Shown: piece after piece, positions 34,584 through 62,648 of the stretch
Layout: each line of letters begins with the position of its first letter
Numbering within the stretch: the stretch's first letter is position 1
Assembly (NCBI GenBank): GCA_016841825.1
Contig: JAENYK010000001.1
Coordinates: forward strand, 310,001-374,000
Direction of reading: 5' to 3'
Length of the DNA stretch: 64,000 bases
DNA from: Halothermothrix sp.
Lineage (GTDB): Bacteria; Bacillota; Halanaerobiia; DY22613
Position numbers and translations under genes: made by a program
The notes under the pieces: generated by a model
Databases searched by the model: none
What the model was told of the DNA's origin: nothing
What the model saw: only the letters and a program-made list of their open reading frames with translations

Positions 34584-35240
34584 CTAAAAAACTAGTCCCG
34601 CAGATAGTCCACATATAGCACCATTAATTTTGAGTGGTGGCACAATATCAGTTCTGGCATTACCATCTTTCCATTGATCATTACCAACTCCATAATTATA
34701 GCCAACATTGGCCTGAAGACCAAACCATTCATTAACTTTATATCCAACTCCCACTCTTGGACCTCCCATAAACAAGAGATTAGTCACAAAAATCTTGTTA
34801 GGGTCAGCGAAATCTGTCAATACACCATCTCGCAGGGTCAGCTCATATGTACTGCCAGCCAGACTAATTCCTCCATAGACATCCAGATTATCCAGAATAC
34901 CATAACCATAATCTATAGTCAAACCCCAGGCAGTGAACCTTAAGTCACTTAAAGCATCCGCATTGACAGCTTTGGCCCGACCTTCATAATTATATAATCC
35001 CCAGCGAAGCCCATTGCGAGAGCCAATTCGGCTAGACCAGCCGTAATAAATCAATCCATCTGGTAAAGCAGGATAACCTGCATCTTCAGTAAGGGTTTTA
35101 AACTCACCCTGATTTAGCATCATATATCCACCTTCAAAACCACTACTGACAAAATCCGTCCCGGTATAATAATCTTCAGCAGCCAAAACATTAATTGAGA
35201 AAAGTAGGACTACGGATAGAACAAAAACTATTTTTTTCAT
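34584..35240 (-). CDS. Exported outer-membrane beta-barrel-like protein
   Basis: A 218-residue protein with a clear signal peptide (MKKIVFVLSVVLLFSINVLA, cleavage after ALA/AEE region near residue 20). The mature part alternates Gly/aromatic residues in short amphipathic strands (GLTIDYGYGILDNLDVYGGI, VGVGYKVNEWFGLQANVGYN, YGVG) and ends in GLSAGLVF, a terminal strand closing with Phe as in outer-membrane barrels. This supports a diderm envelope, as known in Halanaerobiales. Function and partners are unknown. A GAGAGGTG site precedes the ATG, and a terminator follows directly. Confidence 0.75.
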   Translation of the reverse strand: MKKIVFVLSVVLLFSINVLAAEDYYTGTDFVSSGFEGGYMMLNQGEFKTLTEDAGYPALPDGLIYYGWSSRIGSRNGLRWGLYNYEGRAKAVNADALSDLRFTAWGLTIDYGYGILDNLDVYGGISLAGSTYELTLRDGVLTDFADPNKIFVTNLLFMGGPRVGVGYKVNEWFGLQANVGYNYGVGNDQWKDGNARTDIVPPLKINGAICGLSAGLVF

Positions 35241-35959: not shown

Positions 35960-36934
35960 TTATTCACCCAAGGGATCTATGTAATTTAAATAATGATGAT
36001 ACTCTTTCAAAAAATATTCAGCACGTTGAGGATTCTTATCCTGAAATAAAGCAGATAACTTCTTATAGATAACAACTACTTCAGGATAGTGCTTATGCTC
36101 AAGGAAACTGTATAATGCAGTATGCAGATAATTATAAGCATTATTAACTTTACCCAAATGAATCTGCATTAAACCCCGATAATAAAGGTTATAGGTCAAA
36201 GTAAGAAATTTACTATTCTCCAAAGCATATCTGGCAGCTCTCTCAAAATATTCCTCACTCTTATCTAAATCACCCATTAACGCATAAACCCTTCCCAATT
36301 CATTAAAGGTTTGCGCCTGATTATGGTCACCATCAGCATATTCTAAACTCTGCTCAAATGCTGTTAATGCCATCTGCAGTTCATCTTTCTCCAGATAGGT
36401 TAACCCCATATTAGAGGTGGCTTTATACATTGCTTTTCCCCCTACAGATGAGGCAATAGAAAAAGCAGCTTTAAAGTTATCCAATGCTAATTCGATGGAC
36501 TGATTCTCAGAAAAACGATGCAAGAAATAATACAACAATCCTAAATCAGTATGTGCCCGAAACCTTACTCGCTCAGAATCACTATACAAAATATCTTTCA
36601 AAATATTTTCTGCACTTCGGAATTGACCTTTACGATTTAAGGCAAAAGCTTTAGCTGTCAGACATAATTCTCTCTGTTCTGATTCTAACTGATAGTTATC
36701 CAATAAATCATTACTAAAATCCAAAACCTGGTCATATTCACATTTCAAAGCATAACAGAACATTATACCTTTCTTCGCTTCTGCTTCATTCTCCCGATCA
36801 TTCAAAATCTCAGCAGCATTCAATGCTCTAAAAAAATATGCTAAAGCATTGACATAGTTGCCCTGAATATATAACTCTTGTGCTTTTGTAAAATTCGTAC
36901 TCCGATTATTATTTATAAAATCCAATAATTCCAT
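35960..36934 (-). CDS. Cytosolic TPR-repeat protein, candidate receptor of the repeat peptide
   Basis: A 324-residue protein built from tetratricopeptide-like helix pairs over its whole length (for example AQELYIQGNYVNALAYFFRA, MGLTYLEKDELQMALTAFEQ, ELGRVYALMGDLDKSEEYFE). It ends in YFLKEYHHYLNYIDPLGE. It has no signal peptide, membrane helix or DNA-binding HTH. It lies 168 bases downstream of the secreted repeat-peptide gene on the same strand, but has its own strong promoter. TPR proteins with adjacent secreted peptides are the mark of RRNPP systems (Rap, NprR, PlcR, AimR); without an HTH it would be Rap-like. The link is inferred from position. A paralogue lies at 39479-40510. Confidence 0.85.
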   Translation of the reverse strand: MELLDFINNNRSTNFTKAQELYIQGNYVNALAYFFRALNAAEILNDRENEAEAKKGIMFCYALKCEYDQVLDFSNDLLDNYQLESEQRELCLTAKAFALNRKGQFRSAENILKDILYSDSERVRFRAHTDLGLLYYFLHRFSENQSIELALDNFKAAFSIASSVGGKAMYKATSNMGLTYLEKDELQMALTAFEQSLEYADGDHNQAQTFNELGRVYALMGDLDKSEEYFERAARYALENSKFLTLTYNLYYRGLMQIHLGKVNNAYNYLHTALYSFLEHKHYPEVVVIYKKLSALFQDKNPQRAEYFLKEYHHYLNYIDPLGE

Positions 36935-36978
36935 GAAATAACCCCCTTAAGACCAAGCGGTTTGGGATTCTTAGTATA

Positions 36979-37007
36979 ATTATACATTGTCTTTAAGGAA
37001 AAATCAA
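36979..37007 (-). promoter_or_regulatory. Promoter of the first TPR gene with a palindromic motif downstream
   Basis: TTGATT (37002-37007) and TATAAT (36979-36984) are 17 bases apart on the minus strand. Between the -10 box and the ribosome site the sequence CCAAGCGGTTTGG (about 36953-36965) is an imperfect palindrome and could be an operator. Confidence 0.75.
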
Positions 37008-37046
37008 GTAAATTGTTTGATTTTTTACATCATTAATTAGTTAATT

Positions 37047-37071
37047 CAAAAAAATACTGGCTTTCGCCAGC
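37047..37071 (-). terminator. Terminator of the repeat-peptide gene
   Basis: ACTGGC and GCCAGC form a stem closed by a GAAA tetraloop on the minus strand, followed by a U run (37054-37048). It separates the peptide gene from the TPR promoter. Confidence 0.8.
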
Positions 37072-37101
37072 ATTTTATGTAAATATGCCAAAATTTATCC
37101 T

Positions 37102-37449
37102 CTACGCAATGGTAAATGGATCATCGCCACCATTCTGTGGGTCACCTTCAGTTCTAAATGGTTCATCTCCTCCATTTTGTGGGTCTCCAGCTATTACAAA
37201 TGGGTCATCGCCACCATTCTGTGGATCACCTTCAGTTCTAAATGGCTCATCTCCTCCATTTTGTGGATCACAGATAATCACAAATGGTTTATCTCCAACG
37301 TTTTGTGAATCTCCCTGAGTCCTAAATGGTTCATCTCCTCCATTTTGTGGATCACTAACCATTACACCGTTTCGCAAATCTGATGCAATTACACTTATGA
37401 TCGCAAATAACATAGCAACAACCAAGAGAATTCCAAGCATCCTTTTCAT
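37102..37449 (-). CDS. Secreted precursor with six 14-residue repeats, candidate signalling-peptide precursor
   Basis: A 115-residue protein: Lys/Arg start, hydrophobic signal peptide (MLGILLVVAMLFAIISVIA, cleavage likely near VIA-SD), a short linker, then six tandem units of 14 residues to the C-terminus. Units alternate between DPQNGGDEPFRTEG and DPQNGGDDPFVIAG forms, so the real period is 28 residues, repeated three times; units 1 and 2 are diverged (DSQNVGDKPFVIIC). ATG 37447-37449 follows GAGGGGGT; a TTG one codon earlier is not needed. The strong promoter at 37496-37524 and own terminator show a dedicated transcript. Multi-copy secreted peptides next to a TPR protein suggest a pheromone precursor; a surface or metal-binding repeat protein is the alternative. 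Confidence 0.8.
   Translation of the reverse strand: MKRMLGILLVVAMLFAIISVIASDLRNGVMVSDPQNGGDEPFRTQGDSQNVGDKPFVIICDPQNGGDEPFRTEGDPQNGGDDPFVIAGDPQNGGDEPFRTEGDPQNGGDDPFTIA
37109..37357. repeat. Tandem repeat of 42 bases (84-base higher order) inside the peptide gene
   Basis: Six units of 42 bases encode the 14-residue repeats. Alternate units are most alike, giving three copies of an 84-base block. The repeat keeps the opposite strand open by chance, producing an antisense frame that is not taken as a gene. Confidence 0.85.
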
Positions 37450-38002
37450 CAAATCTACCCCCTCATATTTTTATTGCACCTTTCTCTATAAATATATTAT
37501 AACTTACTTTTCCTGTATTTTCAATACATTATATGCACAGCAGGGAAAATATATTCAATTGAAGATTATTTTGATTACTTATAAACCCTAATTTTTATGG
37601 TTAAACAAATTTTTATCATTCCATAAATGTGTTTTATTTACAACACTAAATCTATCCAAAAATAGTTATTTATCTGACAGATAACAGGAAAATTCGTCAA
37701 AATTACACACTATGTATTTTCCAGTTATTTGACTTTAAAATTTAAATACGCTAAATTTTGTAATTTTCATATTTAAACACCAGTACTTACCATGTCAATA
37801 TTTTGCAAACAAATTGTTTGACACTCTAAAGAATTATCGTTAATATTTCCCATAGAAAAATCTGGTCATAAATAGCAGATTTTTTACACCTAAATCAACT
37901 CTCTTTTTCCATTGGAATATTTGAAAACATAACATCAACAGAAAAGGTGTTTACTACTCAATGCCGAATGTATTATAGTATTGAAATGGAGGTGTTTTGT
38001 AC
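37450..38002. other. Divergent regulatory region between the repeat-peptide and MATE genes
   Basis: About 550 AT-rich bases. The leftward promoter is at 37496-37524. The rightward gene has GGAGGTG before its ATG, but no clear -35/-10 pair was chosen. No gene seen. Confidence 0.4.
37496..37524 (-). promoter_or_regulatory. Strong promoter of the repeat-peptide gene
   Basis: TTGAAA (37519-37524) and TATAAT (37496-37501) are spaced by 17 bases on the minus strand, close to the consensus. Transcription begins near 37490. Confidence 0.82.
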
Positions 38003-39478: not shown

Positions 39479-40510
39479 CTACATCCACATTGAATCATCC
39501 TCTTCACTGATGTAATCAATATGTTCCACACCCATAGGACTGACATAATTCAAATAAAACTTATATTGTTCATAATATAAGTCACCTTTTTCGGGATTAA
39601 TTCGACGATAAAGTTCATAGAGTTCAAGGAAAGATTTCACAATTCCATAATAGTATTCTTTTTCGCGATAACCTGATAAAGCTAGTTCAAGATAATTGGC
39701 CGCTTCGTCAATTCGACCTCTCTTGCGATTTAGTTTACCTTTGGCGAATAGACACCCGGCCAATCCCAACACGTCCTGCGATTTTTCAAAATGATGTTGA
39801 GCTTTATCAATATATGCTTTTGCCAGATCATATTGAGATAATTTGATAAAGATAACAGCCATATCCACCAGAGTATTATGACGTTCATGTTGAGCTGGAG
39901 CATATTCCAGAGAATCTTGAAAAGCTGCCATACCCTTGACATCTTCACCCAATTCTGTATAGATGTGACCTAAATTATGATAAGCATAGTATAAAGCTAA
40001 TGAATTGCCATCAACCTCTGCTATTTCAATAGTTTTCTGACAATATTTAATAGCATCCTGAAAATAAAGTGAGTCTGTGAATTTACCTAGACAAAAATAC
40101 GCAAAAATCTCACTAAGCAAGGCATCTATATGTAATACTTCACCACTATCATGAAGCTCATTATATATTGCGATAGCCTTCTCATATTCCCCGCGATGAA
40201 TCAACGCTTTGGCACGATTTAACTGGACTTTAATATAATACTCATTGTCATCCATCTCTAGCAATTCACGATAGCATTCTTCAGCTAAATTAAAGTCCTG
40301 AGCAGAATTTCGTAACTGGTAAGTATGTCCCAGATGATATAAAATCTCAGCTTTTTTAGCCATATCTGATAAAATCTCACAGGTTCCTAGAGCCTTTTGA
40401 AAATATTCAATGGCTTTTTGTGGATTATTCTCCTCATAATATGCCTGACCTTTTTGAAAATTTTCTTCCATATGATGATATAATAGTTCATGATTTAATT
40501 CTACAGCCAT
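39479..40510 (-). CDS. TPR-repeat protein, paralogue of the 35960-36934 protein
   Basis: A 343-residue cytosolic protein of repeated TPR pairs (GQAYYEENNPQKAIEYFQKA, NLGHIYTELGEDVKGMAAFQ, AKGKLNRKRGRIDEAANYLE). The C-terminal segment NPEKGDLYYEQYKFYLNYVS-PMG matches in position and pattern the end of the other TPR protein (NPQRAEYFLKEYHHYLNYID-PLG), showing common descent. There is no HTH or membrane helix. It has its own promoter at 40549-40577. No secreted peptide gene was found beside it, so if these are receptors, the second one is an orphan or shares the peptide. Confidence 0.85.
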   Translation of the reverse strand: MAVELNHELLYHHMEENFQKGQAYYEENNPQKAIEYFQKALGTCEILSDMAKKAEILYHLGHTYQLRNSAQDFNLAEECYRELLEMDDNEYYIKVQLNRAKALIHRGEYEKAIAIYNELHDSGEVLHIDALLSEIFAYFCLGKFTDSLYFQDAIKYCQKTIEIAEVDGNSLALYYAYHNLGHIYTELGEDVKGMAAFQDSLEYAPAQHERHNTLVDMAVIFIKLSQYDLAKAYIDKAQHHFEKSQDVLGLAGCLFAKGKLNRKRGRIDEAANYLELALSGYREKEYYYGIVKSFLELYELYRRINPEKGDLYYEQYKFYLNYVSPMGVEHIDYISEEDDSMWM

Positions 40511-61436: not shown

Positions 61437-62648
61437 ATGAAAAAATTGAACATTCTCATCCTGACTGCACTATTAATCTGCTCAATATATTTACCCTCCC
61501 GGGCTGAATCAACTAATACAAATCCCCCTGAGACTAAAAGAGTATCAATCCTCGATATGGAAACTTCTCAGCATACAGATTTGGATACTGCTAACGTAAT
61601 TGCACGTCAAGACACGGAACAGGACGTGCAAATTCAAAACGGAGCAAAGGATAGTGCAAATCAGGAACCAGTTATGACTGATGTAGCCGTCGCCAACAAT
61701 TTAGATCCTGAAGAGATTCCAGAGCATACAGCCAGTCCGATAAATAGTGACCTGCGAAGTTCTGTAGAGAATAATACTGAGGACAAGACAACCACAGAAT
61801 CAGAAGACGTGCAAAATGAGCAAATAGGCACTGAAACAGATAAATCTTCAGATGAAAAAACTACAGAACAGACACCTTCTGGCGATCATTTAAATGAAAA
61901 TTATCAGCATGAAAATCAAGCTCAAAAAAATGATCTCCAGACATCTGATGAAAGCAAAATTACTAATGATACCAAGATAGAATCTGCTTCAACTGCAGAT
62001 CAAATTAACGATGAGTCCGCAGAATCTGCCTCGTCTGTAAATCAAAATACCGATAATCCAACAGAGGTTAATTCTACTGCAGACCAGGCAGCCAATGAAT
62101 CTGCAGAGTCTGTCTCAACGGTAAATCAAAGTACCGATAATCCAATAGAGGTTAGTTCTACTGCAGACCGGGCTGCCAATGAATCTGCAGAGTCTGTCTC
62201 AATGGTAAATCAAAATACCGATAGTTCAAAAGAAGTTAATTCTACTGCAGACCAAATTATTAATGAGTCCGCAGAATCTACTTCCACTGAAGACCAAAGT
62301 GTCAGTGATTCAGCAAAATCTGATACTACTATCGACAAAGCTACCGTTAACAAGACAGAATCTAATTCTGCTGAAGATAAACAATCTCAAACAAATATCA
62401 CTGGTAAAAATGATAGCACTAAGACCCAAAGCAGCACCATTACCATTGAGAAAAATGATAAAACTAAAAATGAAACTCCGAATTCTGAACAAACTCGCCA
62501 GGATACCACAAGTAAAGATAAAGATTCTGTAAGTAAAGAAAAGAATGAGGAAAAATACGCTAATACTCAGGGAACATTAGCCAAAATACTCTTTCTATTT
62601 AAAGAATTTGGTGCCTGGCTAAATGGGCTTGTGTTAAGCATTTTCTAA
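61437..62648 (+). CDS. Exported, Ser/Thr/Asn/Glu-rich repeat protein
   Basis: A 403-residue protein: signal peptide (LNILILTALLICSIYLPSRA, about 4-23), then about 350 residues of low-complexity acidic Ser/Thr/Asn/Gln sequence without Cys. Residues 186-297 hold four tandem 28-residue repeats (consensus TADQAANESAESVSTVNQ-xTDNPxEVxS). The last 25 residues are hydrophobic and amphipathic (ILFLFKEFGAWLNGLVLSIF) and could be a membrane anchor. No LPxTG motif is seen. It may be a surface or stalk-like protein. A strong AAGGAGGAG site precedes it and a perfect terminator follows. Confidence 0.75.
   Translation: MKKLNILILTALLICSIYLPSRAESTNTNPPETKRVSILDMETSQHTDLDTANVIARQDTEQDVQIQNGAKDSANQEPVMTDVAVANNLDPEEIPEHTASPINSDLRSSVENNTEDKTTTESEDVQNEQIGTETDKSSDEKTTEQTPSGDHLNENYQHENQAQKNDLQTSDESKITNDTKIESASTADQINDESAESASSVNQNTDNPTEVNSTADQAANESAESVSTVNQSTDNPIEVSSTADRAANESAESVSMVNQNTDSSKEVNSTADQIINESAESTSTEDQSVSDSAKSDTTIDKATVNKTESNSAEDKQSQTNITGKNDSTKTQSSTITIEKNDKTKNETPNSEQTRQDTTSKDKDSVSKEKNEEKYANTQGTLAKILFLFKEFGAWLNGLVLSIF
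61992..62327 (+). repeat. Four tandem 84-base repeats in the exported protein gene
   Basis: Four units of 28 codons starting at TADQ/TADR; units 2 and 3 are most alike and the last is diverged. Such repeats may vary in number by slippage. Confidence 0.75.

Follow-up and report, generated by a model that had tools for sequence, protein, structure and literature searches.

Is the secreted repeat protein encoded at this locus the source of a signalling peptide, and is the TPR protein encoded beside it the receptor? The two genes lie in the window, by which we mean the whole 64,000-nucleotide stretch of Halothermothrix sp. DNA that was analysed, and their features are collected in Table 1. We think it probable that they are an RRNPP-type peptide communication pair, consisting of a secreted precursor and a cytosolic TPR sensor. 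This reading is based on the gene structure, the repeats, the predicted fold, the recurrence of the pairing, and the presence in the genome of Opp-type binding proteins and of Spo0A, all of which are observed; export, cleavage, import, binding and output of the pair we infer.

Table 1. Features of the precursor gene, the adjoining TPR gene and a second TPR gene, in window positions.
Feature	Position	Strand	Remarks
Promoter-like site, precursor	37496..37524	-	TTGAAA-17-TATAAT, 11/12 consensus match only
Precursor gene	37102..37449 including stop; coding 37105-37449	-	115 aa, ATG at 37449, RBS GAGGGGG
Signal peptide of precursor, MKRMLGILLVVAMLFAIISVIAS	37381..37449	-	residues 1-23; from hydropathy and charge; cleavage site inferred
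Six 14-residue repeats of precursor	37105..37353	-	three 28-residue units; final copy 13 residues
Intrinsic terminator, precursor/TPR gap	37051..37076	-	
Promoter-like site, TPR gene	36979..37007	-	TTGATT-17-TATAAT, 10/12 consensus match only
HTH-less TPR protein, candidate cytosolic peptide receptor	35960..36934	-	324 aa
Second TPR paralog	39479..40510	-	343 aa, 28% identity; no neighbouring peptide gene found

At its N-terminus the precursor is basic, and a strongly hydrophobic core follows, as judged by hydropathy and charge. An earlier sequence-only reading had described a signal-peptide protein whose whole mature part is six 14-residue repeats in alternating forms; gene calls, hydropathy and Tandem Repeats Finder bear out a protein with a predicted signal peptide and alternating repeats, but these fall slightly short of filling its mature part, a nine-residue spacer separating MKRMLGILLVVAMLFAIISVIAS from the first of them. 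Copies 1 to 6 read, in order, DPQNGGDEPFRTQG, DSQNVGDKPFVIIC, DPQNGGDEPFRTEG, DPQNGGDDPFVIAG, DPQNGGDEPFRTEG and DPQNGGDDPFTIA, with the core DPQNGGD[E/D]PF. The tandem array is far above chance level, and Tandem Repeats Finder describes it both as 5.8 copies of 42 bp (score 241) and as 2.9 copies of 84 bp (score 342). The two periods imply that the alternating forms are one 28-residue unit, present three times over. Copy 2 is decaying. With this copy excluded, differences between copies within the ten core codons are synonymous in 27 cases and non-synonymous in 6, a descriptive count rather than a formal dN/dS test, and from this synonymous excess the repeat core appears to be constrained. 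Searches of its own genome and of that of a relative of the same family turned up no second copy of the precursor, the query matching itself alone. A scan of genome contigs gave a single weak Desulfobulbaceae fragment, and a tblastn match on an Oceanisphaera plasmid (E 8e-6, 43% across the repeats, unannotated) was judged to be chance low-complexity similarity.

How closely are the two genes linked? The sequence-only reading had placed the TPR gene directly downstream of the precursor. Strand and order are as it said, but 168 bp, an intrinsic terminator and a promoter-like site intervene. A gap of this size lies inside the RRNPP adjacency range of -60 to 400 bp, and the order, precursor first with a terminator between, is unlike the commonest arrangement among the paralogs. 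The promoters that had been given to each gene exist as near-consensus sites, but such sites are no commoner in the region than in shuffled sequence (12 versus 11.0), and the palindrome that had been singled out before the TPR start codon is nothing special either, being no better than in shuffles (z -0.46).

The 324-residue product of the downstream gene is made of TPRs (TPR_12 at E 1.7e-18 in a Pfam scan) and is inside the 250-500 aa range of RRNPP receptors. Its model, a prediction from two aligned sequences, is an all-helical solenoid of 16 helices with pLDDT 90. The eukaryotic peptide-binding TPR protein LGN outscores Rap as a fold match, and the best matches below it include RapI (Z 24.5), the pLS20 Rap (23.8) and NprR (23.4); TPR folds bind many ligands, which speaks against the RRNPP-type reading. 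An N-terminal HTH domain marks NprR, PlcR and AimR; the Pfam scan finds no HTH domain in the window protein, whose solenoid helices start at residue 2, nor in ten other TPR proteins of the family that were scanned, including those of 354-405 aa. With NprR, the receptor of NprX, the model can be aligned over almost its whole length (303 residues, rmsd 3.8), but at 14% identity and without the N-terminal HTH. It resembles the Rap-Phr systems in having an HTH-less TPR protein with an adjoining propeptide, here with a predicted Sec signal, and in fold (Z 22-24.5), and differs from them in that it is shorter than the about 370 residues of Rap, that the N-terminal 3-helix bundle with which Rap acts on Spo0F or ComA is not clearly seen (with some Rap chains the alignment begins at model residue 21-25, with others at 1), that the family's peptides are acidic and Pro-rich, and that many of its pairs adjoin an HTH gene.

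How would such a pair work? The precursor would be exported via Sec, and extracellular proteases would cut the repeats into peptides of ~10 residues centred on the core, possibly in two variants. These would be re-imported by an oligopeptide permease and bound in the groove of the TPR protein; the 11 SBP_bac_5 genes of the source genome, which code for Opp-type binding proteins, provide candidates for the oligopeptide importer looked for in an RRNPP system. Because the TPR protein lacks a DNA-binding domain and the pair has no HTH gene alongside, its output would most likely be through contact with another protein, in the manner of Rap; the partner would be a response regulator or a separate HTH protein encoded elsewhere.

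Homologous TPR genes do not consistently lack a secreted precursor. As candidate peptide genes beside each TPR gene we took ORFs of 30-160 aa that had a ribosome-binding site and began with a stretch resembling a signal peptide, signal peptides across the pairs being called by hydropathy only; directly downstream meant -60 to +60 bp, and other genes of the same stretches served as controls. Such an ORF lies directly downstream of 24 of 51 TPR paralogs but of only 3 of 189 control genes (p=7e-16), and 61-250 bp upstream in 6/51 versus 0/189 (p=7e-5). Since two of the three control positives themselves sit in TPR-peptide loci (L033, L094), the contrast is understated. Relaxed rules, which have no matched control, yield 38 distinct pairs and a partner for 36 of the 55 TPR proteins of at least 230 aa, mostly directly downstream, and most propeptides of the family are 37-74 aa long. 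The adjacency of peptide and TPR genes in this genome is strongly non-random, and together with the fold match to NprR and Rap it lends strong support to the RRNPP-like reading that had been made from the layout. Receptor similarity correlates with peptide similarity (Mantel Pearson 0.37, p=2e-4; Spearman 0.14, p=0.009). This agrees with receptor and peptide being inherited together, but it could stem from the duplication of entire pairs and does not in itself demonstrate functional co-evolution.

Might the window TPR protein be an orphan or eavesdropping receptor, with the six-copy precursor signalling to another TPR protein, either the second one in Table 1 or one encoded elsewhere? The separate promoter-like sites and the intervening terminator would suit such an arrangement, as would the presence of that second gene only 2.5 kb from the first and the fact that 19 of 55 TPR paralogs have no peptide gene. 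We nonetheless consider it unlikely, given how far from random the adjacency is, also at 61-250 bp upstream. The second TPR protein in the window may itself be an orphan receptor. Among the peptide-less paralogs is L028 (G000:C2:291000-302000), which lies near oligopeptide permease genes and is the window TPR protein's closest relative in the tree, the two joining on a long branch. Three sets of peptide-less paralogs pair across the two genomes with 100% support, namely L027/L035, both adjoining the same ferredoxin-EtfA-like gene, L031/L037, both adjoining a patatin-like gene, and L029/L036; these are possibly housekeeping proteins or orphan receptors.

The family is sampled by two genomes only, the source genome (G000) and its relative (G001), whose TPR paralogs of 230 aa or longer together number at least 55. 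A single-sequence search recovers 12 paralogs of the window TPR protein, besides itself, in the source genome, and a profile search gives about 38 matches there and about 15 in the relative. At E<=1e-25 the profile found no members in 57 further genomes of the class, and one stray partial match came from a phylum sample of 398 genomes, some of them shared with the class sample, with no more than five candidates scored in each. On these searches the family looks like a lineage-specific expansion, as seen in the two genomes sampled. No relatives of the window TPR protein were found in phages, and none of the L010 TPR protein in viral contigs.

What do the putative peptides have in common? Pro, Asp and Gly abound in their mature regions, and a [DGNY]P motif is present in 35 of 35 against 22.3 in shuffles. 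By eye the motif takes two layouts, one right after the likely signal-peptidase site (DPVWDDEPD after VFA, GPTAPIEV after VLA) and one C-terminal (NGPWVPVTDD, NNWPDPDEN). A clade of four (L084/L071/L025/L088) has DPxW/Y-DEP-like peptides in common, and the codes of the family include DPVWDDEP and a fourfold GPTAPIEV. The window repeat DPQNGGDEPF agrees with the DP..DEP codes seen in single-copy peptides whose genes adjoin other TPR paralogs. Multi-copy precursors occur in five pairs: that of the window with six copies, L034 with about eight of GPIEQP, L130 (G000:C22:374000-382500), where just beyond the window's right end a TPR gene is followed by a precursor with four of GPTAPIE(V/A), and L129 and L030 with two each, the L030 peptide being GPIQKPV. 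These observations bear on a further alternative, that the repeat protein is a low-complexity structural or surface protein and the adjoining TPR gene unrelated to it. The precursor is indeed longer than typical propeptides, its 115 aa exceeding the limit of 10-100 aa that is a setting of RRNPP_detector (PMC10075063), a limit beyond which multi-copy precursors run; and secreted repeat proteins are not foreign to this DNA, since the window encodes a seemingly unrelated one of 403 aa (61437-62648), in which a tandem repeat of 84 bp gives a sequence with much Ser, Thr, Asn and Glu. The agreement of the repeat core with the single-copy codes and its mostly synonymous differences make this explanation very improbable.

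The RRNPP-type reading also has to be seen beside the regulators that accompany the pairs elsewhere. XRE-type HTH genes number 17 within 700 bp of pairs (77 kb) versus 4 farther off (352 kb; p=6e-10). Of the TPR genes with a peptide partner, 11 have an HTH neighbour, as does one without a partner, and all eight of the eight neighbours scanned are XRE-type, several with two HTH domains. Least credible of all is the idea that RiPPs or bacteriocins are made from the small secreted peptides, with the TPR proteins serving in biosynthesis or immunity: some RiPP systems do have TPR proteins, and there are weak ncbifam matches, far under the cut-offs, to HaaT and FxSxx TPR proteins, but the listed neighbours of the examined pairs include no evident maturase or dedicated transporter, HTH regulators clustering there instead, and the peptides are short, acidic and proline-rich with predicted Sec-type signal peptides.

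XRE proteins of ~170-180 aa stand beside TPR-peptide pairs at L131, L132, L071, L073, L081, L082, L084, L086, L088, L089, L025 and others. At L032 (G000:C4:1-9000) and L033 (G000:C35:1-10000) an XRE repressor, a secreted peptide of 55-68 aa (NAPGFDDDEE / NGPAYDDDESN) and a TPR gene form an apparent operon, opposite which lie another, small XRE gene and a transposase of Mu type. It is possible that these two loci represent an arbitrium-like system in split form that belongs to a transposable element. AimR-AimP likewise combines a peptide with a TPR receptor, and this related TPR-peptide-XRE set sits beside a Mu-like transposase gene; AimR is described with an HTH, whereas the window pair lacks one, and its neighbourhood showed no phage gene.

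The sequence-only reading had called a multi-copy precursor with two peptide forms unusual. Precursors with several identical or different peptide copies are already documented (PMC9765709, PMC11343458): atypically large NprX-type precursors contain repeats (PMC9765709), and up to eight pheromone copies are reported for Rap-Phr precursors (PMC11343458). An HTH-less receptor outside Bacilli, likewise thought unusual, had been predicted as well, such RRNPPA candidates being given for Anoxybacter fermentans as "subfamily 17" (PMC12700828); candidate subfamilies of this kind come from RRNPP_detector (PMC10075063). With both already published, the window pair is not a new kind. Subfamily 17 shares with our family HTH-less multi-TPR candidate receptors and adjacent secreted propeptides in Halanaerobiales, and is a prediction only; our family adds a second genus and dozens of pairs, among them pairs with separate HTH partners and pairs with multi-copy precursors too long for the 100-aa setting of that detector. 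Nothing pairing RRNPP with Halanaerobiales or with diderm was found in the literature searched, most subscription papers lying outside the search.

What is new is how large the repertoire is, that its HTH partners are separate proteins, that the cells likely have an outer membrane, and that one version lies beside a Mu-like transposase. The presence of Omp85 in the genome suggests that the host has an outer membrane, which we regard as likely. A secreted protein at 34584-35240 of the window, with a sub-threshold match to an outer-membrane beta-barrel, agrees with this. More tentatively, and with some doubt, we picture a very large split RRNPP network in an outer-membrane family of Halanaerobiales type, with lone TPR receptors, some forty private codes and separate HTH proteins as DNA-binding arms; the window pair would be its six-copy, two-variant member, and the version beside the Mu-like transposase would control a mobile element.

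About forty such pairs across the two genomes would amount to a large, almost unstudied peptide repertoire. If our reading is true, roughly thirty parallel peptide channels would operate in one genome, more than in the Rap set of Bacillus subtilis, which has eleven or so Rap proteins. RRNPP signalling has been described for Gram-positive cells; its operation across a likely outer membrane would raise the question of how peptides exit and re-enter. The separate HTH genes offer a way to relate HTH-TPR fusions such as NprR to split forms, and the multi-copy precursors of five pairs supply peptides ready for binding assays.
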